Source: Chloroflexota bacterium (GTDB lineage: Bacteria; Chloroflexota; Limnocylindria; Limnocylindrales; CSP1-4). Taken from it: a stretch of DNA of 39,173 bases. The DNA lies in the NCBI GenBank assembly GCA_015478725.1, contig JADMIG010000023.1, forward strand, positions 1-39,173, in the 5' to 3' direction. Below, one piece after another: positions 5,113 to 38,923 of the stretch. Below the pieces are notes generated by a model. That model had not been told where the DNA came from. It saw only the letters and a list, made by a program, of their open reading frames with translations, and did no database searches. Each line of letters starts with the position of its first letter. The first letter of the stretch is position 1. A program made the position numbers and the translations under genes.

Positions 5113-8097
5113 TCAGCGCGCGGCCGCGGCGACGGCTACGATCGCTCCGGCGCGCCGCGACGAGCCGGCGAACGTCACATCGGAGAGGGGCACGAGTGGC
5201 TCACCGCGCAGGACGCGGGCGAGATATTCGCCGGTCGCCGAGCCCTCCGTCGCGGCGATCTCCTCGGGCGTTCCGGTGGCGATGATCCGGCCGCCGCGGA
5301 GGCCACCCTCCGGGCCGAGATCGATGATCCGGTCGGCGGTCTTGATGACGTCGAGATTGTGCTCGATGACGATCACGGTGTTGCCGCCGTCCACCAGCCG
5401 ATGGAGGACCTCGAGCAGCTTCTCGACGTCGGCGAAGTGGAGGCCGGTCGTCGGCTCGTCGAGGACGTAGAGGGTTCGCCCGGTCGCCCGTCGTGACAGC
5501 TCGGTGGCGAGCTTCACCCGCTGCGCCTCGCCGCCGGACAGCGTGGTCGCCGGCTGGCCCAGGTGGACGTACCCGAGGCCCACGTCATCGAGCGTCCTGA
5601 GCCGGGACGCGACCGCCGGGACAGCGGCGAAGACGTCGAGCGCCTCGGCGATCGTCATCTCGAGCACGTCCGCGATCGAGCGGCCCTTGTAGTGGATCTC
5701 GAGCGCCTCGCGGTTGTAGCGGCGCCCGCCGCACACCTCGCACGGGACATAGACGTCCGGCAGGAACTGCATCTCGATCTTGAGGATCCCGTCACCCTTG
5801 CAGTTCTCGCAGCGACCGCCCTTGACGTTGAAGCTGAACCGTCCCGGGCCATAGCCGCGGACCCGCGATTCCGGGACACCGGCGAACAGTTCGCGGATGG
5901 GCGCGAAGAGCCCGGTGTACGTCGCGGGATTGCTCCGCGGCGTCCGGCCGATCGGGCTCTGGTCGATCTCGATGATCTTGTCGATGTGCTCCATCCCCTC
6001 GACCCGGTCATGGGCGCCCGGCTCATCGCGAGCGCCGTTGAGGTCCCGGGCGAGGGCACGGTAGAGGACGTCCGTGACGAGCGTGCTCTTGCCCGAGCCG
6101 GAGACGCCAGTGACGGCCACGAAGCAGCCGAGCGGGAACTCCGCGTCGACGCCACGGAGATTGTGTTCGCGCGCGCCGCGGACGGCGAGGACGTGCCCGT
6201 TCCCCGTCCGTCGCCGGGTCGGGATCGGGACGGAGCGGTCGCCGCGAAGGTAGGCGCCGGTGATCGAGCGAGGCTCCCCGAGCAGCGATTCGAGCGGGCC
6301 GTTCGCGACGATCTCGCCACCGTGCTCCCCGGCACCGGGTCCGATGTCGAGGATCCAGTCGGCGGTCCGGATCGTCTCCTCGTCGTGCTCGACGACCAGG
6401 ACAGTGTTGCCGAGGTCGCGCAGCCGGGTCAGGGTCGCGATGAGCTTGGCGTTGTCCCGCTGGTGGAGGCCGATGGACGGTTCGTCGAGGATGTAGAGGA
6501 CGCCCATGAGCGTCGTCCCGATCTGCGTCGCCAGGCGGATCCGCTGCGCCTCGCCACCGGACAGCGTGACGCTCGTCCGGTCCACGGTCAGGTAGTCGAG
6601 GCCGACGTCGACGAGGAAGCCGAGGCGGGCGGTGATCTCCTTGAGGACGAGCCGGGCGATCGTCCGCTCGCGGTCGGAGATGCGATCCGGCAGCACGGCG
6701 ACCCAGGCGAGGGCGTCGAGCACCGACAGCGCCGCCACATCGCTGATGTTCCGGCCGCCGATGCGGACCGCCAGGGCCCCCGGCTGGAGCTTCTTCCCAT
6801 CGCAGGTCGGACACGGCCGGCTCACCATGAACTTCTCGAGCTCGGTCTTGATGTACTCGGACTCCGTCTCCCGGTAGCGGCGCTCGAGATGGTTGACGAG
6901 ACCCTCGAAGGTCGCCGTGTAGGTGTTCTCGCCCCGCTCGTGGCGATAGCCGATGACGACCCGCTCGTCGCGCGGGGCGTGGAGGAGATACTCGAGCGCC
7001 TCCGGCGGAAGGTCGCGGACCGGCACCTCGTAGTCCCAGCCGTGGGCACGGCAGATCGCCTCGATGATCCGCGATCGCCACGACTCTTCCATCGGGAGGC
7101 GGGCCCAGGGCGCAAGCGCGCCGTCGCGGAGGCTGCGGTCCCGATCCGGGATGAGGCGACCCGGGTCCACCTCGAGCCGCGTTCCAAGCCCGGTGCAGGC
7201 CGGACATGCACCATGCGGCGAGTTGAAGCTGAAGCTCCGCGGCTCGAGCTCCTCCATCGTGTAGCCGTCGTAGGGGCAGGTGAACCGCTCCGAGTAACGG
7301 CGCTCCGTGAACGGCGGCTCCTCGCCGTCCCGTGGCACGGGGGCGACGACGACGACGCCTTCACCGAGACGGAGCGCCGTCTCGATGCTGTCCGCCAGTC
7401 GGGCTGCATCCGGATCCGTCGGCGATCCTTCCGCGCCATCCTTCGACGGGTCGGGCGAGACGTGGCGGACGACGTAGCGGTCGACCACGACCTCGATCGA
7501 GTGACGCTTGTACCGGTCGAGCGGCTTCACCTCCGTCAGGTCCATGAGCTCGCCGTCCACCCGCACCCGGACGAAGCCCTGCCGGCGGGCGCTCTCGAAG
7601 ACGCGGTCGCCCTCCGTCTTCCGATCCTTGACGAGCGGTCCGAGGACGAGGAGTCGCGTGCCGTCCGGCAGGGCGAGCACCTGATCGACGATCTGCTGGA
7701 CCGTCTGACGCTCGATCTCGTGGCCGTTCGGACAGAACGGATGCCCGATCCGCGCGAACAGGAGCCGGAGGTGATCGTAGATCTCCGTGACCGTGCCGAC
7801 GGTCGAGCGCGGGTTCCGGCTGGAGCCCTTCTGGTCGATCGAGATCGCCGGCGAGAGCCCGTCGATCTGGTCGACGTCCGGCTTCTCCATCTGACCGAGG
7901 AACTGCCGCGCATACGCGCTGAGACTCTCGACGTACCGGCGCTGACCCTCGGCGTAGATCGTGTCGAACGCGAGGCTCGACTTGCCGCTGCCGGAGAGGC
8001 CGGTGATGACGACGAGCCGATCGCGCGGGAAGGCGACCGTGACGTCCTTGAGGTTGTGTTCGCGTGCGCCGTGCACGACGATCTGATCCTGGGGCAC
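5113..8097 (-). CDS. uvrA: UvrA, excinuclease ABC subunit A
   Basis: This 994-residue protein is the damage-recognition ATPase of nucleotide excision repair, which loads UvrB on DNA. Two ABC ATPase units are visible: Walker [10 protein letters not shown] near residues 33-41 with signature [12 protein letters not shown], and Walker [10 protein letters not shown] near residue 660 with [12 protein letters not shown]. The C-terminal zinc module is intact (CENCKGDG ... [10 protein letters not shown]). The first zinc module is not canonical: [15 protein letters not shown] has one Cys where CxxC is usual, although CPACTGLG is kept. The GTG at 8097 follows a TAGACT hexamer by six bases, so translation is probably leaderless. 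Length is near the usual 940-1000 residues. uvrB lies just upstream on the same strand. Confidence 0.97.
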
Positions 8098-8103
8098 GGC
8101 CCT

Positions 8104-8109
8104 AGTCTA
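8104..8109 (-). promoter_or_regulatory. Putative -10 box (TAGACT) of leaderless uvrA
   Basis: TAGACT on the minus strand ends six bases before the GTG of uvrA, and no Shine-Dalgarno sequence is present. It lies in the 72-base gap between uvrB and uvrA. No SOS-box-like palindrome is evident to me. Confidence 0.5.
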
Positions 8110-8169
8110 CGGCAGACCCGGCGGATAGAACAGACGTGCGATTCTGCTTCGCACCCTGACCGTCACCGG

Positions 8170-10539
8170 TCAGCGCCGCCGGCGGTGCGGCGATCGGGTC
8201 CCCGTCCGGTGGATGACATTCGGGGTCACCGTCCGATCCCACGTCGGCCGGTCGAGCCAGCGGGCCTGCCATCCCGCGTCCTCGTCGTGCTCGTCGCGGA
8301 TCCCCGGGAGCCAGTCGGCCGCGGTGCCGTCGCCCGCCGACCCGTCCTCCGTGGCGGCATCGCCCTCGCCGCCCGTCGGCCCGAGCGTCGTGGCCGGCTC
8401 CTCGGCCGCCGGCAGGACCGTGACGGACGTCACCTCGAGCCGCGCAGCCGGACGGGATGCGGTCGAACCGGGCCTCGTCCCGCGAGCGGGTCCGCGGACC
8501 ACCCGCTCGACCGCCCGGGCGACCTGCGCCGAGGCATCCTCCTCGAGGACCCGGAGCCGGATCGACTGGATCTCGTCGCGGAGGGCCACGGCGCGCTCGA
8601 ACTCGAGCTGCTTCGCCGCCGACTTCATCTCGGCCTCCATCTGGGCGATGAGCCGCTCGACCTGGGCGCGGGTCGTCGCCGGGAGCTCGCCCGGCGCATG
8701 GGGCGACGAGCCCGGTCGGTAGACCTCCGTCCGCTCGGCGACGGCATGGAGCCGCTCGTTGATGTCGTGGATCTCCTTGCTGATCGTCGTCGGCTCGATC
8801 CCGTGCTCCCGGTTGTACGCCTCCTGGATCGCGCGACGGCGGTCCGTCTCGTCGATGGCCGCGCGCATCGAATCGGTGATCCTGTCGGCGTACATGACGA
8901 CCCCGCCGGCCGTGTTCCGGGCAGCCCGACCGATCATCTGGATGAGCGACCACGAGCTTCGGAGGAAGCCCTCCTTGTCCGCGTCGAGGATCGCGACCAG
9001 GGTGACCTCCGGTAGATCGAGGCCCTCACGGAGGAGGTTGATGCCGACGAGGACGTCGAACACGCCGAGCCGGAGGTCGCGGAGGATCTGGACGCGTTCG
9101 AGCGTGTCGACCTCGCTGTGGAGATACTGGACCTTGATCCCGAGCTCGCGGAGATAGTCGGCGAGGTCCTCCGCCATCTTCTTCGTGAGCGTCGTCACGA
9201 GCGCCCGCTCGCCGCGTTCGGCTCTCGCCCGGATCTCCTCGAGGAGATCGTCGATCTGGCCGTCGGTCGGCCGGACCACGATCCGGGGGTCGACGACGCC
9301 GGTCGGCCTGATGAGCTGTTCGACGACCCGTTCGCTCCGTTCGAGCTCGTACGGCCCGGGCGTCGCGCTCATGTAGATGACCTGGTTGATGCTCGACTCG
9401 AACTCCTCGAAGGTGAGCGGCCGGTTGTCGAGCGCGGACGGCAGCCGGAAGCCGAAGTCGACGAGGATCTCCTTGCGCGTCCGATCGTTCTTGTACATGC
9501 CGACCACCTGCGGGATCGACATGTGGCTCTCGTCGACGACGAGGAGCCAGTCCGGTGGGAAGTAGTCAAGGAGCGTCCACGGCCGGCTGCCGGCGGACCG
9601 TCGCGACAGGTGTCGCGAGTAGTTCTCGACGCCCGAGCAGTAGCCGAGCTCGCGCATCATCTCGAGGTCGAATGTCGTCCGCTGCCGGAGTCGCGCGCCC
9701 TCGAGGATCCGGCCCGCCGCCTCCATCTCGCCGACGCGTGTCTCCATCTCCGCCTCGATGTCGACGAGGGCCTCGCCGAGCTTGTCCGCCGGGGTGACGA
9801 AGTGGGTGGCGGGATAGACGTTGATCTCCTTCCGTTCCGCGAGGAGCTCGCCGGTGAGCGGATCGAGTTCGCTGATCCGCTCCACCTCGTCACCGAAGAA
9901 CTCGACCCGCACGAGTCGGTCCTCGGAGGCCGGCTGGAGCTCGAGCGTGTCGCCTCGAACGCGGAACCGGGCGCGCTGGATCGTGGCGTCGTTGCGCTGG
10001 TACTGGAGGTCGACGAGGTGGCGGAGCACCGCGTCGCGCCGATACTGACCGCCGACCCGGAGGCGGAGGACCGTCGCGCCGTAGTCCACCGGGGCGCCGA
10101 GACCGTAGATGCAGCTGACGGAGGCGACGATGATGACGTCCCGTCGCTCGAAGAGGGCGTGGGTCGCCGCGTGGCGCAGCTTGTCGATCTCGTCGTTGCG
10201 GCTCGAATCCTTCTCGATGTACGTGTCCGAGCGCGGGAGGTACGCCTCCGGCTGGTAGTAGTCGAAGTAGCTGACGAAGTACTCGACGGCGTTGTTCGGG
10301 AAGAACTCGCGGAACTCCGCGTAGAGCTGGGCGGCGAGCGTCTTGTTGTGGGCGAGCACGAGCGTGGGCCGCTTGTGGCGGGCGATCGCCTGAGCCACGG
10401 TGAACGTCTTCCCCGTCCCCGTGGCCCCCAGCAGCGTCTGGTGGCGAAGGCCTCGTCCGAGCCCGTCGACGAGCCGTTCGATGGCGGCTGGTTGGTCGCC
10501 GGTCGGGACGAAATCCGCGACGAGCTGGAAATCGGGCAC
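8170..10539 (-). CDS. uvrB: UvrB, excinuclease ABC subunit B, with long C-terminal extension
   Basis: UvrB is the helicase-like damage-verification subunit of nucleotide excision repair. Walker A is GATGTGKT. The diagnostic beta-hairpin region is [20 protein letters not shown], and helicase motifs continue through QMIGRAARN. The UVR domain that contacts UvrA/UvrC follows ([20 protein letters not shown]). After it come about 120 extra low-complexity, acidic then basic residues ending SPHRRRR, so the protein is 789 rather than about 670 residues. The GTG at 10539 gives the usual N terminus ([19 protein letters not shown]) and lies six bases after TATCGT. An upstream in-frame GTG at 10563 is less likely. 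Confidence 0.96.
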
Positions 10540-29861: not shown

Positions 29862-31350
29862 GATCCTCTTCGTGCCGGTCCTCGCGGCGTATCTCGCGAT
29901 CCTCGTCGCGCTGTTCGCCCATGGCCTCAACTTCCTGTACCTCGCGAAGACGGCGATACAGACCTCTGCGGCCCGCCCGCCCGCCGTCACCCCGGAGACG
30001 TGGCCGCTGGTGACCGTCCAGCTCCCCGTCTACAACGAGCTGTATGTCGCGGAGCGGCTCATCGATGCGGTCGCCGCGCTGTCCTACCCGCGAGGGCGAC
30101 TCGAGGTCCAGGTCCTCGACGACTCGACCGACGAGACGGCGACGCTCGTGGCCGCCGCGGTCCGCCGCTGGCGCCTCCGCGGGCTCGACATCCATCACGT
30201 CCGCCGCGAGCGGCGCACCGGGTACAAGGCCGGCGCGCTCGCTGCCGGACTCCGCCTCGCGACCGGGGAGCTCATCGCGATTTTCGACGCTGACTTCGTC
30301 CCGGGGCCCGACTTCCTCGTCTCGACCGTCGCGGTCCTCTGCGCCGACCCCGGACTCGCATTCGTCCAGGCGCGCTGGGGACACACGAACCGCGAGTACT
30401 CGCTCCTCACCCGCCTCCAGGCACTCGCCATCGACGGCCATTTCGCGGTGGAGCAGGCGGGCCGCTGGGCCGGAGGCCAGTGGTTCAACTTCAACGGGAC
30501 GGCAGGCGTGTGGCGACGCGCCGCCCTCGAGGACGCAGGCGGCTGGGAGACGGACACCCTCACGGAGGATCTCGACATCTCGTATCGCGCGTTCCTCGCC
30601 GGCTGGCGGGCTGCGTATGTGCGGGCCGTCGAGGCGCCAGCCGAACTGCCCGTGAGCTTCAACGCCTATCGCCGCCAGCAGCACCGCTGGGCGCGCGGGA
30701 GCTTCGAATGTGCGCTCAAGCACCTGCCGGCGATCTGGCACGGTCCGGCGCCGCTCGGCCGGAAGGTCTCGGCGACCCTCCACCTCACCGGCTACTCGAT
30801 CCACCTCCTCCTCCTCGCGCTCTCGCTCCTCTACCCGCTCCTTCTCATCGTCTCGGTCCGCCATCCAGTCGTCTTCTCGCTGTTCGGGATCATGAGCGTC
30901 TTCAACCTCACGACCCTCGCTCCGACCCTCCTCTTCACCATCGGCCAGCGCCAGCTCGGCCGCCGCTGGATCGCCGAGATCCCGACGATTCTCCTCCTCA
31001 GCGCCCTCGGCGCGGGGATGATGGTGAACACCGCGCGGGCCGCCTGGCAGGCGCTCGGCGGTCGGCCTGCCGCATTCGAACGGACGCCGAAATTCGGCGT
31101 CCGGCGGCGGCACGAGGATTGGCGACGACTCCGCTACCAGCTGGGGGTCGACCGCATCGTCGTCCTCGAGGTCGCGCTCGTGGCGCTCAACCTCGCCACC
31201 TGCCGCGCAGCGCTCGAGCACGGGTCGTGGGCGATCGCGCTGTACACGGCGATCTTTGCCGGCGGTCTCGGCGCGGCTGTCGCCCTGACGATCGGGCAGA
31301 CCTTGCGGAGCACCTGGGCCGCTCGCAGCGCGAGCGCCGCCCGAGCCTAG
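29851..31350 (+). CDS. Processive GT2-family glycosyltransferase (cellulose-synthase/CslA-like)
   Basis: This 499-residue integral membrane enzyme has one N-terminal membrane segment, a cytoplasmic GT-A domain and about four C-terminal segments. Catalytic landmarks are LPVYNELYVAERLIDAV, QVLDDSTDET (near residue 88), FDADFVPGPDF (near 145), LTEDLDISYRA (near 240) and YRRQQHRWARG, the QxxRW motif of processive synthases (near 275). The closest described relatives by pattern are glucomannan/beta-mannan synthase-like GT2 proteins; no PilZ domain is present. The GTG at 29851 is inside the previous gene's end. The TAG stop overlaps the dnaE stop codon on the other strand within one CTAG. Confidence 0.92.
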   Translation: MLPEILFVPVLAAYLAILVALFAHGLNFLYLAKTAIQTSAARPPAVTPETWPLVTVQLPVYNELYVAERLIDAVAALSYPRGRLEVQVLDDSTDETATLVAAAVRRWRLRGLDIHHVRRERRTGYKAGALAAGLRLATGELIAIFDADFVPGPDFLVSTVAVLCADPGLAFVQARWGHTNREYSLLTRLQALAIDGHFAVEQAGRWAGGQWFNFNGTAGVWRRAALEDAGGWETDTLTEDLDISYRAFLAGWRAAYVRAVEAPAELPVSFNAYRRQQHRWARGSFECALKHLPAIWHGPAPLGRKVSATLHLTGYSIHLLLLALSLLYPLLLIVSVRHPVVFSLFGIMSVFNLTTLAPTLLFTIGQRQLGRRWIAEIPTILLLSALGAGMMVNTARAAWQALGGRPAAFERTPKFGVRRRHEDWRRLRYQLGVDRIVVLEVALVALNLATCRAALEHGSWAIALYTAIFAGGLGAAVALTIGQTLRSTWAARSASAARA

Positions 31351-34300
31351 GCGAGGCTGAGCTCGACGACACCGTCGCCGAGCCGGCGGTCGAGCTCGGC
31401 GAGAAGCTCGGCGTCGTAGGCGACCCGCGTCCGGAGCTCCATCGGGAGCGCCGTCCTGCCGCCACCCTGAGGGAGGTGGAGGACGACCGGCGTGCCGCCG
31501 GGCCGCGCCCGCAGCAGCGCCCGCACCTCCTCCATCGCGCCGACGAGCCGATCCGTCCCGGCCGCCTGGCGAAACCGAACGTGGAGGATCCCGCCGGGCC
31601 GTGCGTCCACCGGGCGCGTCGGCGCGGTGTTCGCCGCGAGGGCCCGGTCGCGGGCCTCGTCGGGCAGCGGCGGCTCGTCGTCGCGATCGCCCCCGACGAC
31701 GGCGAGATCCTCGGGCTCGCTGTATGTGGGAACGGACGGTCCGGGCTCGAACGCCGACGGCACGGGCGCAGCCTCCGCTCGTGCCTCCGGTCGGAGGGGC
31801 GAGACACGCGACACGCCCGGACTGATCCCCGACCCGGACGACGCATCCGCGGCCACCGGTCGAGGCCCGGATCCGTTGCCGCGCTCCGGCGTCCGCCGCC
31901 CGTTCGCGCCGTCCCTCACCTCACTCGATCGGCGTCCCGGGCCTCGACTCCGCTCGCCGGCCGCGACCTGCCGGGCGAACGCGTCGGGCCCCGCCACGAC
32001 GGCCAGGTCCCAATCCACGACGAGGTCGGCGAGCAGGCTCACCTCCTCGCCGCGGTGGTCGATCCTCCCGGCGACGAGGAGGATCGCACCCTCCGACCAG
32101 GACCGCGCGGTCTCCTCCCACGTCCTGGGGAAGACGACGATCTCGATCGACCCCTGGACGTCCTCCAGGGAGACGATCGCCATCGTCGCCTTCGCCTTCG
32201 TCACGACCATCCGGATCCCGGTGACGATGCCGCCGACGACGATGCGCTGCCCGTCGAGCGTCTCGTCCCGCAGGTCGCCGGAGTACGCGGTCGCGAATCG
32301 ACCGACCGCCTCGGCAACCTCGCCCATCGGGTGCTCGGAGAGATAGAGGCCGAGGAGCTCCTTCTCCCAGCGGAGCCGTTCGCGGATCGGCGTCTCGGCG
32401 GTCCTCGGGAGCGCCGCCTCGAGCGTCGCCGCATCCGCCGCCCCAAGCTCGAAGAGCGACGTCTGGCCGGTAGCCCGATCGTGCTGGGTCGCCTGGGCCG
32501 CCGCCACCGCGTCGTCGAGGCCGAGGAGGATCTGGGCCGGATGGCCGAACGAGGCGAGCGCACCGACTTTGGCGAGCGACTCGAGGACCTTGCGGTTGGC
32601 GAGCCGAAGATCGATCCGCGTGCAGAGGTCCGTCAGCGATCGGAACGGTCCGCCGGCCTCCCGTGCCGCCACGATCGACTCGATGGCGCCCTGACCGACG
32701 TTCTTCACGGCGAGGAGACCGAACCGGATCCCGGCACTCTCCACGGTGAACTCGAGGTCCGACCGATGGATGTCTGGCACGCGCACCTCGATGCCGAGCC
32801 GACGGCACTCGGCGATCGCCGCCGCGACTTTCTCCTCGTTGGAGCGGACCGCGGTCAGGACGCTCGTCATGTACTCGACCGTGAAGTTCGCCTTGAGGTA
32901 GGCCGTCTGGTAGGCGATGAGCCCGTAGCACGTCGCGTGCGCCTTGTTGAAGCCGTACCGCTCGAACGGCTCGAAGGCGGTGAAGACCGCGTCGATCGTC
33001 GCCGGGCTCACGCCGCGCTCCCCTGCCTGGCGGACGAACCGCTCGCGCATCGATCGGAGGACCGTCGACTTCTTCTTGCGGATCGCGTAGCCGAGCGTGT
33101 CGGCCTCCGGGCCGGAGAAGCCGCCGAGGGCGACCGCCGCGGCCATGATGTCCTCCTGGTAGACGAAGATCCCGTACGTCTTCGCGAGGTACGGCTCGAG
33201 GAGCGGATGGAGATACGTCACCGGCTCCTGGCCGTGCTTGCGCCGGATGTAGGCGGGGATATTGTCCATCGGGCCCGGCCGGTAGAGCGCCACCATCGCT
33301 GCCAGGTCGTAGACCGACGTCGGTCGCAGCTCACGGATGTAGCGCCGCATGCCCGCCGACTCGAGTTGGAAGATGCCCGTCGTCTCGCCGGAGGCGAGGA
33401 GGTCGAAGGTCTTCCCGTCGTCGAGCGGGATGTGGTCGAGGTCGATGGCGACCCCTCGCTCGGCCCGGATGAGCTCGACGGCCTGGCGGAGGATCGTGAG
33501 GTTCGAGAGACCGAGGAAGTCGAACTTGAGCAGTCCGAGGGATTCGACGCCGTGCATCTCGTACTGGGTCATGAGCCCGTCGGAGTTCGTCGCCTTCTGC
33601 AATGGCATGAGCTCGGTGAGCGGCTCGCGACTGATGACCACGCCGGCGGCGTGGGTCGAGGCGTTGCGGGCGACGCCCTCCAGCTGCTGCGCGAGGTCGA
33701 CGAGCCGGCCCACCTGCGGATCGGCATCGACGAGTTCGCGGAAGACGGGTGCCGACTCGAGCGCATCTGCAAGCCGGATGCCGAGCTGGTTGGGGACGGC
33801 CTTGGCGATCCGGTCGACCTCGCCGTAGCTCATCCCGAGGACGCGACCGACGTCGCGGATCGCCGCCCTGGCGAGCATCGTCCCGAACGTGATGATCTGG
33901 GCGACGTGATCCTGGCCGTATTTTCGCCCGACGTAGGCGATGACCTCCTCGCGGCGGCCGTCCTCGAAGTCGACGTCGATGTCCGGCATCGTCACCCGGT
34001 CCGGGTTGAGGAATCGCTCGAACGGCAGCTGGTAGAGGATCGGATCGACCGGCGTGATGCCGAGGGTGTAGGTGACGATCGAGCCCGGCGCACTCCCGCG
34101 GCAGGTCGTCTGGATCCCCTCGTCGCGGGCGAACCGGATGAAGTCGGCCACGATGAGGAAGTAGCCCGCGTAGCCCATCTTCAGGATGACGTCGAGCTCG
34201 TAGTCGAGCCGGGCCTGGAGCTCCGGCGTCACCGCTTCGTAGCGTCGCGCAAGGCCCCGCTGGCACTCGGCGCGCAGCCATGTCTCCGCGCTCTCGCCAT

Positions 34301-35183
34301 CGGGGACCGGGAAATGGGGGATGCGCAGCTGCCCGAGCGGCAGCTCAAGGTTGGTCATCTCGGCGATGCGCCGGGTGTTGAGGAGCGCCTCCCGCTGGTC
34401 GGGGAACAGCGCCGCCATCCGGGCAGCCGACTTGAGCCAGAAATCGTTCGTCTCGAACTTCATCCGGCCCGGCGAATCGAGGTTGTTGCCGGTGCCCACG
34501 CACAGGAGGACGTCGTGGGCCTCGTGCTGCTGCTCACGAACGTAGTGCAGGTCGTTGGTCACGACCAGCGGCAGGCCTGCCTCCGGTGCGAGCCGGAGGA
34601 GCTGCTCGTTGAGGCGCCGCTGCTCCGCGAGGCCGTGGTCCTGGAGCTCGAGGTAGAAATTGTCCTTGCCGAAGATGTCGCCGTACTCGCCGGCCAGCGT
34701 GCGAGCGGACTCCCAGTCGTCGACCTCGAGGGAGCGGGCGATCTCGCCGTTGAGACAGGCCGAGAGCCCGATCAGGCCCTCGCTGTACCTCGCGAGATGC
34801 TCCCGGTCGATCCGGGGCTTGTAGTAGTAGCCGTCGATGTGCGCGTCCGTGATGAGCCGGCAGAGGTTGCGGTAGCCCGTCAGGTCCTTCGCGAGGAGGA
34901 TGAGATGGAACGGCTGGGCATCGGCCTTGCCTTCCTTGTCGCGCATCCCCCGCCGGGCGACGTAGGCCTCCACCCCGATGATCGGCTTGATGCCCCTGGC
35001 CACGGCCGCCTGATGGAAGGCCACCGCCCCATAGAGGGCACCGTGATCGGTCAGCGCGATCGAATCCATCCCGTGCGCGGCCGCCGCATCCACGATGTCG
35101 CCGATCCGACCGAGCCCGTCGAGCAGGCTGAATTCCGAATGGACGTGGAGGTGCGTGAAGTCGTTCGGGGCGATGGTCGTCAC
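31347..35183 (-). CDS. dnaE: DNA polymerase III alpha subunit
   Basis: This 1278-residue protein is the replicative polymerase. The PHP domain opens with DFTHLHVHSEFSLLDG (residues 9-24) and keeps the HxH pair and TDHGALYG. The catalytic aspartates are in PDIDVDFEDGRREEV (Asp401, Asp403), and the third lies in LLKFDFLGLSNLTIL. The OB-fold (about residues 975-1045) contains VVGGIVTGIRMVVTKAK and VQGSIEIVVFPRTW. A low-complexity linker of about 100 residues leads to a small C-terminal domain (HVRFRQAAGTDRLVGAMEEV). The start is GTG 35183 with no Shine-Dalgarno sequence. A TACCAT hexamer nine bases upstream suggests (near-)leaderless transcription. The promoter and first codons are repeated three times further upstream. 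Confidence 0.97.
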   Translation of the reverse strand: MTTIAPNDFTHLHVHSEFSLLDGLGRIGDIVDAAAAHGMDSIALTDHGALYGAVAFHQAAVARGIKPIIGVEAYVARRGMRDKEGKADAQPFHLILLAKDLTGYRNLCRLITDAHIDGYYYKPRIDREHLARYSEGLIGLSACLNGEIARSLEVDDWESARTLAGEYGDIFGKDNFYLELQDHGLAEQRRLNEQLLRLAPEAGLPLVVTNDLHYVREQQHEAHDVLLCVGTGNNLDSPGRMKFETNDFWLKSAARMAALFPDQREALLNTRRIAEMTNLELPLGQLRIPHFPVPDGESAETWLRAECQRGLARRYEAVTPELQARLDYELDVILKMGYAGYFLIVADFIRFARDEGIQTTCRGSAPGSIVTYTLGITPVDPILYQLPFERFLNPDRVTMPDIDVDFEDGRREEVIAYVGRKYGQDHVAQIITFGTMLARAAIRDVGRVLGMSYGEVDRIAKAVPNQLGIRLADALESAPVFRELVDADPQVGRLVDLAQQLEGVARNASTHAAGVVISREPLTELMPLQKATNSDGLMTQYEMHGVESLGLLKFDFLGLSNLTILRQAVELIRAERGVAIDLDHIPLDDGKTFDLLASGETTGIFQLESAGMRRYIRELRPTSVYDLAAMVALYRPGPMDNIPAYIRRKHGQEPVTYLHPLLEPYLAKTYGIFVYQEDIMAAAVALGGFSGPEADTLGYAIRKKKSTVLRSMRERFVRQAGERGVSPATIDAVFTAFEPFERYGFNKAHATCYGLIAYQTAYLKANFTVEYMTSVLTAVRSNEEKVAAAIAECRRLGIEVRVPDIHRSDLEFTVESAGIRFGLLAVKNVGQGAIESIVAAREAGGPFRSLTDLCTRIDLRLANRKVLESLAKVGALASFGHPAQILLGLDDAVAAAQATQHDRATGQTSLFELGAADAATLEAALPRTAETPIRERLRWEKELLGLYLSEHPMGEVAEAVGRFATAYSGDLRDETLDGQRIVVGGIVTGIRMVVTKAKATMAIVSLEDVQGSIEIVVFPRTWEETARSWSEGAILLVAGRIDHRGEEVSLLADLVVDWDLAVVAGPDAFARQVAAGERSRGPGRRSSEVRDGANGRRTPERGNGSGPRPVAADASSGSGISPGVSRVSPLRPEARAEAAPVPSAFEPGPSVPTYSEPEDLAVVGGDRDDEPPLPDEARDRALAANTAPTRPVDARPGGILHVRFRQAAGTDRLVGAMEEVRALLRARPGGTPVVLHLPQGGGRTALPMELRTRVAYDAELLAELDRRLGDGVVELSLA

Positions 35184-35200
35184 GGGAGGTCAATGGTAGC
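35131..35200. repeat. Repeat copy 1: native dnaE promoter and first codons
   Basis: This is the presumed parent of a dispersed direct repeat. On the minus strand it holds the -10-like TACCAT, nine bases, the dnaE GTG and about 17 codons. The best-matching core with the other copies is 35150-35200. Beyond it, copies 2 and 4 show an insertion (around TCAATAGC) and then match again at the GAATTC/GAGTTC end. Confidence 0.85.
35193..35198 (-). promoter_or_regulatory. Putative -10 box (TACCAT) of dnaE
   Basis: TACCAT on the minus strand is nine bases from the dnaE GTG. The mRNA between them reads TGACCTCCC, which has no purine-rich ribosome-binding site, so a leaderless or near-leaderless transcript is likely. 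The hexamer is preserved in repeat copies 2 and 4. Confidence 0.5.
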
Positions 35201-35507
35201 CCGGCGACGGGCGGGCCGATGGTCGCCCATCTTCTCGAGTAGGCGGCGTTCATCGCTTCGAAGTCGCTCATCCGCCCCAGAAGACGTTCACGTGAACGAC
35301 GTGTCCAAGGTCGGATCCGACCGACGAGGGCATCACCTCGAAACTGTCGAGGATCTGCCTGGTCTGCGACCCTACATCCTCGCCAGCGAGACGACCCGTC
35401 GCCGGATCGACGCCCGCAGTCCCGCCGATCGTGATGAAGCGCTCCACCTTGGCGATGTGGCTGTACGGACCGATGGGAGCCGGCGTGCCAGCTGGCGGGC
35501 TTCGTGG
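35196..35507 (-). pseudogene. RidA/YjgF-family remnant (frameshifted, 3' end lost)
   Basis: This is the gene-poor stretch between the ketopantoate reductase-like gene and dnaE. Reading the minus strand from 35507 gives PPAGTPAPIGPYSHIAK, then FITIGGTAGVDPATGRLAGE and VGSQTRQILDSFE. Next come GSDLGHVVHVNVF and a stop. After a frame change near 35275-35285 the reading continues MSDFEAMNAAYSRRW and PPVAGLP. This order matches RidA (reactive imine deaminase) proteins (PYS, SG-x-DP-TG, Q-T-x-x-L, VxVNVF, DFxxMNxxY, VAxLP). No start codon precedes the first motif in frame, there is at least one frameshift, and the protein would end at the dnaE promoter. I take it as a decayed gene. A sequencing error could explain the frameshift but not the missing start and lost end. 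Confidence 0.65.
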
Positions 35508-36443
35508 TCAGTGGCCGGTCGCCGCCCGGTTGCGCTCCGCCCAGGGCCGCAGGATCGCGTAGATCGCCTCACAGGTCGGGACCGTCAGGCCGACTGCTCG
35601 GGCGCGGGTGGTGACGATCCCGTGGAGCGCCTCGAGCTCCATCCGTCGTCCGTGCACGAGATCGTGGTAGAGAGACGAGTACGAGTCGGCGGCGAGCCCG
35701 GCGGCCAGGGCGAGCTGACGATCGACCAGGTCGGCCGCGAGGTCGACGCCATCGGTTCTCGCGAGCGCCGTGACCTCTTCGAGGATCGAGCGGAACATCC
35801 TCCACGCCGCCGGATCGTCGCGGATCGGTCCGATCGGAAGGCGGACGGCTGCAGTCATCCCGGCAACCGCACAGATGAAGGAGAACTTCGACCAGAGATG
35901 GGCGCGGATGTCCGGGGTCATCTCCGCGTCGACGCCGCCCGCGACGAATACGTCGAGGATCCGTCGCGCGCGGTCGCTCGGGTGGCCGTCGAGCTCGCCG
36001 AACACGATCCGGTTCGCGGTCCCCGTCTGTTCGATGACGCCGGGCGCGGCGAGGGCGACGAAGACGAATGCCGCCCCACCCATGACGTGCCCCGGGCCGA
36101 TCACCGCCTCGATCCGGTCCTCGTTGTCGATGCCGTTCTGGAGCGAGAGGACGGACGTCTCCGGGCGAAGGAGAGGGCCGAGGCGGCCGGCCGCCTCGGC
36201 GGTGTCGTACGACTTGACGCAGAAGAGGACGAGGTCGACAGGTCCCACTTCCGATGGGTCGGCGACGGTCGCGAGACGAAGCTCAAGGTCGCCAAGCTGG
36301 CTCCGGACCTTGATGCCCTCAATACGCAGGGCCGCGAGCTGTGCCCCGCGGGCAATGAGGGTGACGTCCGTCCCTCCCGCCGCCAAACGCGCACCGAAGT
36401 AACCGCCGAGCGCACCCGCACCGTAGACCGCGACTTTGATCAC
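35508..36443 (-). CDS. Ketopantoate reductase-family (ApbA/PanE-like) protein
   Basis: This 311-residue NADPH-dependent reductase has a Rossmann motif at the N terminus (VAVYGAGALGGYFGARLAAG). DLVLFCVKSYDTAEAAGRL and LSLQNGIDNEDRI follow. The C-terminal helical domain has WSKFSFICAVAGMTAAVRLP, including the conserved catalytic-type Lys, and SSLYHDLVHGRRMELEALHG. PanE makes pantoate for CoA, but many family members act on other 2-oxo acids, so I give no symbol. The GTG at 36443 overlaps the stop of a 31-residue leader ORF (GTGA). That leader starts in repeat copy 2, so the gene probably uses the duplicated dnaE promoter. Confidence 0.88.
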   Translation of the reverse strand: MIKVAVYGAGALGGYFGARLAAGGTDVTLIARGAQLAALRIEGIKVRSQLGDLELRLATVADPSEVGPVDLVLFCVKSYDTAEAAGRLGPLLRPETSVLSLQNGIDNEDRIEAVIGPGHVMGGAAFVFVALAAPGVIEQTGTANRIVFGELDGHPSDRARRILDVFVAGGVDAEMTPDIRAHLWSKFSFICAVAGMTAAVRLPIGPIRDDPAAWRMFRSILEEVTALARTDGVDLAADLVDRQLALAAGLAADSYSSLYHDLVHGRRMELEALHGIVTTRARAVGLTVPTCEAIYAILRPWAERNRAATGH

Positions 36444-36535
36444 CACATACAGACCGTGGCATGGAATCGCAGATGCAAACTCGGAGTTATTGACAGGTGG
36501 AGCTGCGAAGGATCGTTCGGGGCGATGGTCGTCAC
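36440..36535 (-). CDS. Leader ORF 1 (31 residues), DnaE-like N terminus, coupled to the ketopantoate reductase-like gene
   Basis: Starting at the GTG equivalent to the dnaE start in repeat copy 2, this frame encodes VTTIAPNDPSQLHLSITPSL and 11 more residues. Its TGA overlaps the GTG of the next gene by four bases. The first eight residues are identical to DnaE. The start is nine bases from a TACCAT box, as in dnaE. Translation is not proven. The exact coupling, which also appears at leader ORF 3, argues for it. Confidence 0.45.
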   Translation of the reverse strand: MTTIAPNDPSQLHLSITPSLHLRFHATVCMW

Positions 36536-36552
36536 GGGAGGTCAATGGTAGC
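36478..36552. repeat. Repeat copy 2: duplicated dnaE promoter/leader
   Basis: This 75-base copy runs from AACTCGGAG to AATGGTAGC on the plus strand, and differs from copy 4 at only about six positions. Weaker similarity to copy 4 extends about 25 bases further, to about 36577. It sits directly upstream of the ketopantoate reductase-like gene, in the same orientation as copy 1 at dnaE. Confidence 0.85.
36545..36550 (-). promoter_or_regulatory. Putative duplicated -10 box (TACCAT) for leader ORF 1 and the ketopantoate reductase-like gene
   Basis: Identical in sequence and spacing (nine bases to GTG 36535) to the -10 box of dnaE, and carried in by repeat copy 2. Confidence 0.45.
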
Positions 36553-36631
36553 GGCGCGACCAAGCCGGGGCTGACGCCGCAGGAAGCGCACCGCGGCTGG
36601 GAACGTCGCCACAGGTGGATCGGTGGACTCG

Positions 36632-37216
36632 CTAGCGCGCGGCTCGCAACATGGAAACGACGGGCGGGCATGCTCCAGCCTGGGCCTGGCCGGTGACCTT
36701 GAATCCGTAACGCTCATAGAACGAGATGCTCCGGGGATTTGGGGTATCGAGATACACCGGCAGATGATCCTCGTCGACGACCGTGAGGCAATGCCTCATC
36801 AATTCGCCGCCAAGGCCCCTGCCTTGCACGGCCCCGTCGACGCCGAACCATGCCAGGTACCAATGCGGGAATCTCGGGTGTGCGTCATCCATCTGGCCGA
36901 GCATGGAAAAGGTGTCCTCGTGCTTGGCGGGCGCGACCGTCTCCGTGAGCACGGCGACGATGGCACTGCCGTCCACCTCCACCCGCGGAGGCAGCCAGAT
37001 GGCGACCGCCGAAAACTCGCCGAGCTGCCAGACCGTCTCGTGAGTGAACGCCTTGCCCCCGAACGCCGCCAGGAATTCGGGGAAGTGCGTCAGATACTGC
37101 CGCGCTTCCGGATACAGCCAACGCTCGACTGGGTCGGCGGCGAATGCCAGGACGAGGACGTCGAGGGCCCTCTGCTGCTCGTCCTCACGCACGGACAAGA
37201 ATTGAGTTGCGCTCAT
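36632..37216 (-). CDS. GNAT-family N-acetyltransferase (first)
   Basis: This 194-residue protein has the acetyl-CoA-binding motif VDGAVQGRGLGGELMRHCL followed by LPVYLDTPNPRSISFYERYG, a classic GNAT C-terminal half. The N-terminal half has DVLVLAFAADPVERWLYPEA and AVAIWLPPRVEVDG. The acetyl acceptor is unknown. It resembles the next acetyltransferase upstream in layout, so the two belong to one subfamily. The ATG at 37216 is preceded by AGGGAAGG at a good distance and lies 16 bases after the stop of leader ORF 2. Codon use here (for example CAAT, CATC and TCAA runs) is less GC-biased than in the core genes, which suggests transfer. Confidence 0.9.
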   Translation of the reverse strand: MSATQFLSVREDEQQRALDVLVLAFAADPVERWLYPEARQYLTHFPEFLAAFGGKAFTHETVWQLGEFSAVAIWLPPRVEVDGSAIVAVLTETVAPAKHEDTFSMLGQMDDAHPRFPHWYLAWFGVDGAVQGRGLGGELMRHCLTVVDEDHLPVYLDTPNPRSISFYERYGFKVTGQAQAGACPPVVSMLRAAR

Positions 37217-37232
37217 GTCGCCTTCCCTGCGG

Positions 37233-37304
37233 TCAGTCCGCGCTCGAAGTCCCAGCTATTGACCGGTCGAGCTGCACGAAGTCGTTCGGGGCCAGGGGGC
37301 TCAT
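37233..37304 (-). CDS. Leader ORF 2 (23 residues), DnaE-leader-like, between the two GNAT genes
   Basis: The frame encodes MSPLAPNDFVQLDRSIAGTS and three more residues. It shares APNDF.QL..SIA with leader ORF 3 and APNDF with DnaE. Its ATG overlaps the TGA of the upstream acetyltransferase gene (ATGA), and it ends 16 bases before the next acetyltransferase start. The promoter half of the repeat has been lost here, so it can only be expressed from the upstream gene's transcript. Whether it is translated is inference. Confidence 0.4.
   Translation of the reverse strand: MSPLAPNDFVQLDRSIAGTSSAD
37247..37304. repeat. Repeat copy 3: diverged, promoter part missing
   Basis: CAGCTATTGACCGGTCGAGC and CGAAGTCGTTCGGGGCC on the plus strand match copies 2 and 4. 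The sequence then departs where the others carry the start codon and -10 box. It lies between the two acetyltransferase genes. Confidence 0.75.
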
Positions 37305-37957
37305 CGGCCTTCGACCCGTGTCGAGGCCTGTGGCAGACGCCACATCGTCGAAATCGGGGCGTCGTCGAGCACGGACCGGAAGCCACCGAGCCGCCTGAAG
37401 CCGGCGCGCTCATACCGGTGATCGTTGCCGGGGTTCGTTGACTCGAGGTAAGCCGGCACGCCTGCTGCGTCCCATCGCGCCAGGTCCTCCGCCAGGAGGC
37501 GCTGGCCGATGCCCTGGCCCCGATGGTCGGGATGGGTCGCCAACAGGCTCAGGTAGGCGTGCGCCTCGTCGTGCGGGTGGTTCGCGGCGAAACGCTCCCA
37601 TAGGTCGAACATCGCGCGTACTGCGGCCGGCTCGAGCGTCGCCTTGACCAACTGCTCGAGCGCCTCCTCGCCAGCGTTCGACAGCTCGATCCCGTCGGGT
37701 GGGACCCAGACCGAAACGGCCGACGCATCGTCGGTCATGAACACGGTCGAGTAGCTGAGCGCACCCTCGACGTACAGCTGCCAGTAGGCCGCGTGGTGGA
37801 CCGTTGCGCCATCAGGTCTCGCGAGCGCCACGCTCCAAACGGGATCGTGAAGGAACGCCAGCGTCAGCGTCTCGGTCACCAGACCGACGTCGTCGAGCGT
37901 CGCCGGACGGGAGGCCATCGGGGCATTTTCCCCGAGGACCGTGGATCTCGTCATCAT
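37301..37957 (-). CDS. GNAT-family N-acetyltransferase (second)
   Basis: This 218-residue protein has the acetyl-CoA-binding segment LATHPDHRGQGIGQRLLAED and then PAYLESTNPGNDHRYERAGF, matching the layout of the downstream paralogue. The N-terminal part has TETLTLAFLHDPVWSVALAR and AVSVWVPPDGIELS. The acceptor is unknown. ATG 37957 is used because it overlaps the stop of leader ORF 3 (ATGA). ATG 37918 (MASRPATLDDVG) is also plausible and would start just before the GNAT fold. Its stop overlaps the start of leader ORF 2. Confidence 0.9.
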   Translation of the reverse strand: MMTRSTVLGENAPMASRPATLDDVGLVTETLTLAFLHDPVWSVALARPDGATVHHAAYWQLYVEGALSYSTVFMTDDASAVSVWVPPDGIELSNAGEEALEQLVKATLEPAAVRAMFDLWERFAANHPHDEAHAYLSLLATHPDHRGQGIGQRLLAEDLARWDAAGVPAYLESTNPGNDHRYERAGFRRLGGFRSVLDDAPISTMWRLPQASTRVEGR

Positions 37958-38124
37958 TCGGCCGGCGAACCACCGACCGACGCCTCGACTACCCGAGCGC
38001 GCGGTCTTGCAAGCTGACGCGTCAACGGGACGCCACCTGCACCAAGTCGCGGTGTGTCCGTGCGCGAACTCGGAGCTATTGACACGTGGAGCTGCGTGAA
38101 GTCGTTCGGGGCGATGGTCGTCAC
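37954..38124 (-). CDS. Leader ORF 3 (56 residues), DnaE-like N terminus, coupled to the second GNAT gene
   Basis: From the GTG in repeat copy 4 the frame encodes VTTIAPNDFTQLHVSIAPSS and 36 more, largely basic residues. The first ten are identical to DnaE (VTTIAPNDFT). The TGA at 37954-37956 overlaps the ATG at 37957. The GTG is nine bases from a TACCAT box. Conservation of the leader, box and coupling suggests real expression. The C-terminal part is unlike the other leaders. Confidence 0.42.
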   Translation of the reverse strand: MTTIAPNDFTQLHVSIAPSSRTDTPRLGAGGVPLTRQLARPRARVVEASVGGSPAE

Positions 38125-38141
38125 GGGAGGCCAATGGTAGC
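38067..38141. repeat. Repeat copy 4: duplicated dnaE promoter/leader
   Basis: This 75-base copy runs from AACTCGGAGC to AATGGTAGC on the plus strand. The 35-base core around the start codon is almost identical to dnaE. Weaker similarity to copy 2 continues to about 38165. It faces the second acetyltransferase gene and is divergent from the DUF5674 gene. Confidence 0.85.
38134..38139 (-). promoter_or_regulatory. Putative duplicated -10 box (TACCAT) for leader ORF 3 and the GNAT genes
   Basis: Same hexamer and same nine-base distance to the GTG as at dnaE. It would drive leader ORF 3, the second acetyltransferase, leader ORF 2 and the first acetyltransferase as one transcript. Confidence 0.45.
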
Positions 38142-38201
38142 CGCGCCACGCCAGCCGCTGCCGACACGCGCTCCGAGGTGGACTCCCGGGGCCGTTGCCA
38201 G

Positions 38202-38213: not shown

Positions 38214-38594
38214 ATGGGACAGGACGAACCACGGGAGCCCACGCCCGCCATGCAGATCGTGCGGGAGACCATCGCGCTGTCCGCTCTCGAGCGAATGGCC
38301 GAGGGCATGTTCGAGAACCTCGTGAAGGCGGTCGTTGACATCGAGCAGGGCATCATGGCGGTCGGGGGTGAGATGCACGCCGACGAGGAGGCTCTGCTCC
38401 TCGACGAAGGCTCGCCGCAACCCACTCTCTGGGGGATCAACCTCTACCCGGCGCAGTTCGGCAGCGCGAGGTTCATCGAGTTCGACTCTGTGATCAACAT
38501 CCGCCCGCGGCAGGGCAACCGAACACGCTCGGTCGACGACGCGGCGGTGCGCGCGGCGGTCACGTCGATCGTCGCGCGAATGGTGGTCCGATGA
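38214..38594 (+). CDS. DUF5674-family protein
   Basis: This 126-residue soluble protein reads MQIVRETIALSALERMAEGM near the start. It then carries NLVKAVVDIEQGIMAVGGEM, HADEEALLLDEGSPQPTLWG and IEFDSVINIRPRQGNRTR. This matches DUF5674 as I remember it, found in scattered bacteria and candidate phyla and of unknown function. The strongly conserved HADEEALLL and NIRP.QGNR stretches look like functional sites. The ATG at 38214 is six bases after a TACGCT box; the frame is open 12 codons further but with no start signal. The stop overlaps the next gene (ATGA). Confidence 0.82.
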   Translation: MGQDEPREPTPAMQIVRETIALSALERMAEGMFENLVKAVVDIEQGIMAVGGEMHADEEALLLDEGSPQPTLWGINLYPAQFGSARFIEFDSVINIRPRQGNRTRSVDDAAVRAAVTSIVARMVVR

Positions 38595-38923
38595 CGATGC
38601 ACGCTGGCCTGGCGAGCGGTCGCTGGTGGACGCTCACGCTCGCGGAGCAGCTCGGCAACGCTGGCGCCGACGTCGGCCGGGCAGTCCGGGCCAGGCAGGA
38701 AGGCGACGAGGGCCGCTTCGAAGCGGCCCTCGATCGCGCGTTGGAGCTGCTCGATCTGACCCTTGCGGACCCTCGCTGGAGCGGCCCTCGCCTTCGTGAG
38801 ATCGCACGCACGCGCGAGGTCGTGTGCGACTTCCTCGTCGGGGACAACCTCTACCGATCGACTCCGGAGTTGCTCGACGCCTACTTCCTCGCCTTCGCCC
38901 TCGCGGCTCGGCGCGACAGGTAA
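38591..38923 (+). CDS. Small conserved hypothetical protein, partner of DUF5674
   Basis: This 110-residue, mainly helical protein contains TLAEQLGNAGADVGRAVRAR, ALDRALELLDLTLADPR, LREIARTREVVCDFLVGDNL and LLDAYFLAFALAARR. I recall a small uncharacterised family with this pattern (WTxLSxxEQxxNxGSEVxRA ... ALELLDLT ... REVxCDFLxxDN) that often travels with DUF5674. The four-base overlap (ATGA) implies coupled synthesis, so the two may form a complex. The function is unknown to me. A toxin-antitoxin pair is conceivable but unsupported. Confidence 0.78.
   Translation: MTMHAGLASGRWWTLTLAEQLGNAGADVGRAVRARQEGDEGRFEAALDRALELLDLTLADPRWSGPRLREIARTREVVCDFLVGDNLYRSTPELLDAYFLAFALAARRDR

Follow-up and report, generated by a model that had tools for sequence, protein, structure and literature searches.

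Short DnaE-like reading frames upstream of dnaE in uncultured Chloroflexota as probable scars of serial cassette insertion

Integrative elements that target the 5′ ends of genes insert inside the coding end of their target, bring in a promoter and an N-terminus, and leave the target expressed; these elements are large, carry their own integrase, and are known to insert in tandem at dusA (PMC8409611). Integrons, and clusters of attC sites that lack an integrase, present accessory genes in an array with a related repeat between them and a promoter nearby (PMC8618304, PMC7923331). Composite islands of the staphylococcal cassette chromosome (SCC) at rlmH have likewise arisen from insertions in series at a single site, with direct repeats left behind (e.g., PMC5964201), and in the case of prophage HK022 beside torS the promoter of a host gene is supplied by the inserted DNA (PMC6814406). 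In the 39,173-nucleotide stretch of a Chloroflexota genome analysed here (contig JADMIG010000023.1; hereafter the window), dnaE, which encodes the alpha subunit of DNA polymerase III, is preceded by an array of accessory genes separated by short open reading frames (ORFs) that begin like DnaE itself. An earlier note on this DNA regarded these ORFs as leader peptides coupled to the genes behind them. The ORFs do exist, but they are probably, in the first place, old 5′ ends of dnaE, which that note missed, displaced upstream by the serial insertion of cassettes that each supplied a replacement promoter and N-terminus. A search of the open-access literature found neither dnaE described as a site for cassettes or islands nor any account of such integrase-free arrays.

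The dnaE gene occupies positions 31347 to 35183 of the minus strand and its product starts, from 35183, with VTTIAPNDFTHLHVHSEF. Upstream on the same strand are three short frames of 31, 23, and 56 codons that, as the earlier note had observed, share the core APND[FP]xQLxxSI to a degree far beyond chance, two of them opening with VTTIAPND as DnaE does. Leader ORF 1 runs from GTG 36535 to TGA 36440 (VTTIAPNDPSQLHLSITPSLHLRFHATVCMW), leader ORF 2 from ATG 37304 to TGA 37233 (MSPLAPNDFVQLDRSIAGTSSAD), and leader ORF 3 from GTG 38124 to TGA 37954 (beginning VTTIAPNDFTQLHVSIAPSS). The likeness lies at the level of DNA and not of the peptides alone. The frames are associated with copies of a repeat, here termed relic A (36472–36560), relic B (37229–37303), and relic C (38059–38149), the last being the dnaE 5′ end most distant from dnaE; as a query against the whole genome, relic C matched itself, relic A (5e-25), dnaE (7e-22), and relic B (5e-11), and nothing else. 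The repeat starts ahead of the start codon in both relic A and relic C, with the −10 region (TACCAT at 36550–36545 and 38139–38134, respectively), and the promoter and 5′ codons of the present dnaE (35130–35208, with TACCAT at 35198–35193) constitute a functional copy of the same repeat.

In general, a relic consists of a −10 box, a start codon and about ten codons of dnaE, followed by an arm of about 36 bp that is not derived from dnaE and then by a cargo gene; relic B has the dnaE-like codons without the promoter half. The left half is the 5′ end of dnaE (GGCTACCATTGACCTCCCGTGACGACCATCGCCCCGAACGACTTCACGCA). The arm (36505–36472 in relic A, 37274–37239 in relic B, and 38094–38059 in relic C) has the consensus CAGCTCCACSTGTCAATAGGTGGGAGTTYRCGCAC, with AGCTCCGAG in place of AGGTGGGAG in some copies, and contains the inverted repeat CCACCT-GTCAAT-AGGTGG. 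Homology of the relics to dnaE breaks at codon 11, which is the beginning of the PHP domain, and the ten residues that precede it vary among relatives and are evidently exchangeable. Over the 22 copies described below, mean pairwise identity is 0.60–0.66 in the arm and 0.28 in the flanks, falling to 0.30 about 30 nt past the start of the right half of the arm. In the relics of L074 (13551, 14477) and L027 (5908), GA(C/G)TTCACGCA or a near copy flanks the palindromic part of the arm on both sides as a direct repeat, which is possibly part of a recombination site. An RNA structure or riboswitch was ruled out, as the repeat gave neither a match in Rfam nor a covarying fold.

A sequence model of the repeat (nhmmer), used together with BLAST, recovered 22 relics in 11 genomes from two families of one class: the window genome, G015, G016, G051, G064, G066, G074, G078, G119, and G120 from one family, and G156 from the other. 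The same arm is present in all of them and a recognisable dnaE left half in nearly all. Arrays hold up to four relics with units of about 0.7–6 kb, and all eight arrays that are linked to dnaE on a contig (those of the window genome, G064, G066, G074, G078, G119, G120, and G156) lie upstream of it on the same strand. Other genomes have dnaE alone, without a relic, and in G001, a congener of the window genome, none was found upstream of dnaE on what is a short contig. An exact scan of 84,980 species genomes for a 19-mer of the arm recognised no copies outside these Chloroflexota, returning three Chloroflexota contigs of the same kind and one chance match in Acidobacteria, and viral contigs yielded 24 matches, to a 16-mer only and by chance. 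An occurrence of CCCCGAACGACTTC in contig C33 of the window genome was rejected as a relic, since it sits in unrelated coding sequence.

Three comparisons between relatives argue for insertion into dnaE over duplication of a leader. G073 provides an empty site, in which a DUF5674 gene and a gene for an uncharacterised 110-aa protein of no known family stand immediately upstream of dnaE with no array between. The same pair occurs on the plus strand of the window (38214–38594 and 38591–38923), with 86% DNA identity to G073 over 793 bp and 93% identity for the 110-aa protein, and here it adjoins relic C and is followed by about 3 kb of array before dnaE, which places relic C at the former beginning of dnaE. 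DUF5674 is sporadic in the family, being found in 14 of 107 genomes, and in DNA the pair is closer to its G073 counterpart than dnaE is. The second comparison concerns relic 10454 of G064, which together with about 100 bp of upstream sequence matches the promoter and start still used by dnaE of the congener G074 (85.5% over 138 bp); the homology stops just after TTCACGCA, where the arm follows, and the present dnaE of G064 has a start of a different type. In the third, dnaE of G156 is 90% identical to that of its congener G158 from about codon 8 onward, but the promoter and opening codons read GCTACCATTGACCTCCCGTGACGACC, a sequence shared without a difference over 26 bp with relic A of the window genome, and the start of the G158 type (GTGACCCAGCGACC) is found at the head of the first array ORF. 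Insertion thus splits its constant target, dnaE, within the 5′ end, as seen from the empty site in G073 and the break after codon 10, and in both G156 and G064 the new promoter and N-terminus come from incoming DNA. Taken together, the comparisons indicate that insertion replaces the start of dnaE and leaves the old start upstream.

In the account that we consider likely, dnaE would have received cassettes in succession, each at the junction between the PHP domain and the roughly ten exchangeable codons that precede it. Each unit would bring the arm first, then the cargo, and then a dnaE start that in most cases has a promoter of its own. dnaE would remain intact and be expressed through the start supplied by the inserted unit, while the former promoter and start would persist upstream, adjoining the arm, as a relic from which the cargo could be transcribed in near-leaderless form behind a short ORF for truncated DnaE. 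The inverted repeat of the arm, its sharp border, and the many cargos joined to it suggest site-specific recombination by an enzyme that would act in trans at the arm/dnaE core. It is quite conceivable, and is proposed here tentatively, that this is a gene-capture system distinct from integrons, in which cassettes without an integrase are delivered to the start of dnaE by a recombinase supplied in trans, with CCACCT-GTCAAT-AGGTGG as its site and the promoter and N-terminus of the polymerase swapped at each event.

Of the 24 dnaE genes and 17 relics tested, 20 and 13, respectively, have a −10 TACCAT or close variant 6–10 nt ahead of the start codon, which is the layout expected of a leaderless transcript, and the relics would act as promoters for the cargo behind them. 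To this extent the claim of the earlier note that the repeat brings a promoter holds, many captured genes being found behind a dnaE-type promoter and start codon. The note had further proposed a translation-entry module, in which the leader ORF hands ribosomes to the captured gene through overlapping stop and start codons and the gene needs no ribosome-binding site of its own. Experiments have established termination-reinitiation at overlaps of this kind (PMC6728339). Overlaps occur as GTGA (36443–36440) at the start of the ketopantoate reductase-like gene, where no Shine-Dalgarno sequence is evident and coupling may still operate, as ATGA (37957–37954) at the first possible start of acetyltransferase B, and as TTGA in G074; the second of these depends on which ATG is used (37957, 37954, or 37918), and the three are the only ones noted at the 22 relics. 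They arise in the window through loss of the usual stop in relics A and C, which lets leaders 1 and 3 run to the downstream starts (36440, 37954). For acetyltransferase A the overlap is not kept: leader ORF 2 ends 16 nt before the ATG at 37216, with the Shine-Dalgarno sequence GGGAAGG (37227–37221) in the gap, and the leader is frameshifted in G074 and missing in G064. The note itself had counted frameshifted leaders without consequence for the downstream gene as evidence against coupling, and this is the pattern found, as acetyltransferase A is 89–90% protein-identical in G064 and G074 and its GGGAAGG is retained in both as in the window. A fixed stop just beyond the arm, preceded by a ...SSRTKA-like sequence, terminates the leader in about 10 of 22 relics, often tens of nucleotides short of the cargo gene, and some cargo is antisense. 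Several arms contain frame-breaking indels (−1 in G074, +1 in G066, −7 in G016) and arm substitutions alter amino acids; with no sign of constraint on the peptide, a leader peptide under selection was ruled out. The short ORF is unavoidable, since it starts as DnaE and passes through the arm. As a general principle translation entry is therefore improbable; coupling of leader to gene would be incidental and is most plausible for ketopantoate reductase. The ATG of leader ORF 2 also overlaps the stop of the upstream acetyltransferase B (ATGA, 37304–37301), which hints at the converse case, a past coupling of dnaE itself to a captured gene.

The main rival to serial insertion by a dedicated recombinase is homologous recombination, in which DNA of relatives would enter between the dnaE 5′ repeats of about 50 bp and the body of dnaE, and the arm would be inherited from one ancestral insertion. 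Such recombination is favoured by repeats of 50–68 bp that are about 94–98% alike in several genomes, by the slight divergence of relic C, by the occurrence of one cassette in related genera, and by the lack of an integrase adjoining any array; yet inheritance alone does not give an arm joined sharply to many unrelated cargos, and the foreign stretch of dnaE in G156 amounts to only about 7 codons with native dnaE directly after, and we judge this explanation a serious one but rather unlikely. That the arrays are integron cassettes, forming an attC cluster without its integrase, is very improbable, even though, as in integrons, accessory genes (GNATs, SnoaL-like, PIN) alternate with repeats and, in addition, the arm carries an inverted repeat. 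A pyrimidine follows GTT in 21 of 22 arms, which departs from the GTTRRRY core, no fold covaries, and the left half is dnaE itself; attC sites with RYYYAAC/GTTRRRY cores and a conserved hairpin were not found in the arms, nor was the integron integrase TIGR02249 found above cut-off in any of 61 genomes, and integrons are excluded as far as tested. An artefact of assembly or binning, or chance similarity, is scarcely credible: the fragmented state of all the assemblies would allow for it, but the same structure is present in 11 genomes, the named ones of which come from different isolates and projects, and its presence inside single contigs, E-values down to 1e-26, and recurrence within contigs refute it. 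Several observations nevertheless weigh against serial insertion. Fragmentation of every assembly counts here also, and the relics of G015, G016, and G051 lie on contigs without a link to dnaE. The DUF5674 pair was probably transferred as a block, which weakens the empty-site comparison with G073. Relic C, which in the presumed order of events should be the oldest, is the least diverged from the present dnaE; its near-identity to dnaE means either that the repeats are young or that they have to be credited with gene conversion or recombination among themselves. The new dnaE start closely resembles the relic both in G066 (68 bp at 94%) and in G078 (59 bp at 95%), which is also compatible with duplication in place. 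No recombinase tied to the arrays was found: among the array ORFs that were read or given to Pfam, no phage integrase was recognised, only an IS1/IS240-like transposase in a G156 cassette, and nine phage-integrase-family matches in the window genome all lie off the contig of the window and without linkage to an array.

The cargo of the arrays is accessory in nature and includes GNAT acetyltransferases, a ketopantoate reductase with a RidA remnant, SnoaL-like proteins, an ABC transporter, a cation-efflux-like protein, DUF1326 with a PpoB2 protein, cyclase-ATPase regulators, a PIN protein and, on the opposite strand, a prolipoprotein diacylglyceryl transferase. In the window it comprises, on the minus strand, the GNAT acetyltransferases B (37301–37957) and A (36632–37216), the ketopantoate reductase-like gene (35508–36443, GTG start), and, as the final part before dnaE, the RidA-family remnant (35230–35480; PF01042, 1.6e-13). 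The acetyltransferase A cassette has 90–92% DNA identity among the window, G074, and G064, and the block common to all three starts at the right end of the arm (GAGTTCGAGCG). This cassette lies behind a relic in two genera and, in G064, beside an apparent arm remnant, and the sole close homologue of acetyltransferase A without a relic is one at 77% in G015:C175. Cassette order has changed between genomes, being hydrolase, relic, and SnoaL in G015 as against SnoaL and then hydrolase in G051. The first array ORF of G156 (L115 4768–5265), for which no confident family was found in Pfam or NCBIfam, opens with the dnaE-type start of its own family (GTGACCCAGCGACCC) and is apparently an in-frame capture of a dnaE start by a small gene. 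At 7039–9550 of the same locus, the cyclase-ATPase cassette contains, and is apparently split by, the IS1/IS240-like transposase gene and a DNA methylase-like gene. On the minus strand of G066 L078, from 1972 downwards, a leader continues in frame into GNAT-like sequence (..VTWKPMALVIETERLTLR..), a possible natural fusion to a DnaE leader; the fragment of that sequence tried against Pfam gave no match.

In these uncultured Chloroflexota, the gene for an essential replicative polymerase would serve as both a landing site and a source of promoters for accessory genes, and as its promoter and first codons would be replaced at each event, gene capture would be tied to the control of a replication gene. 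The arrays define a site and a sequence from which a recombinase, and cassettes in soil and groundwater metagenomes, can be sought, and they caution that short conserved “leader peptides” may be insertion scars and not regulators. The 5′-end-targeting integrative elements resemble them in inserting within the 5′ coding end, in the incoming promoter and N-terminus, in the continued expression of the target, and, at dusA, in tandem insertion, but those elements are large and encode an integrase, whereas the dnaE units span about 0.7–6 kb with no integrase seen, leave up to four relics, and target a replicative polymerase gene. Integron arrays and integrase-less attC clusters are alike in their accessory genes, intervening repeats, and nearby promoter; the dnaE arrays differ in lacking the attC core, the conserved attC fold, and the integron integrase, in having a repeat that is the start of a host gene and usually supplies a promoter for each unit, and in ending on dnaE. 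SCC elements, whose composite islands likewise record successive insertions at one site, target the 3′ end of rlmH and encode Ccr recombinases, unlike the dnaE arrays. With HK022 the arrays have in common that inserted DNA supplies the promoter of a host gene, but there a single prophage with its own integrase lies beside a regulatory gene, whereas here the gene concerned is that of the replicative polymerase.

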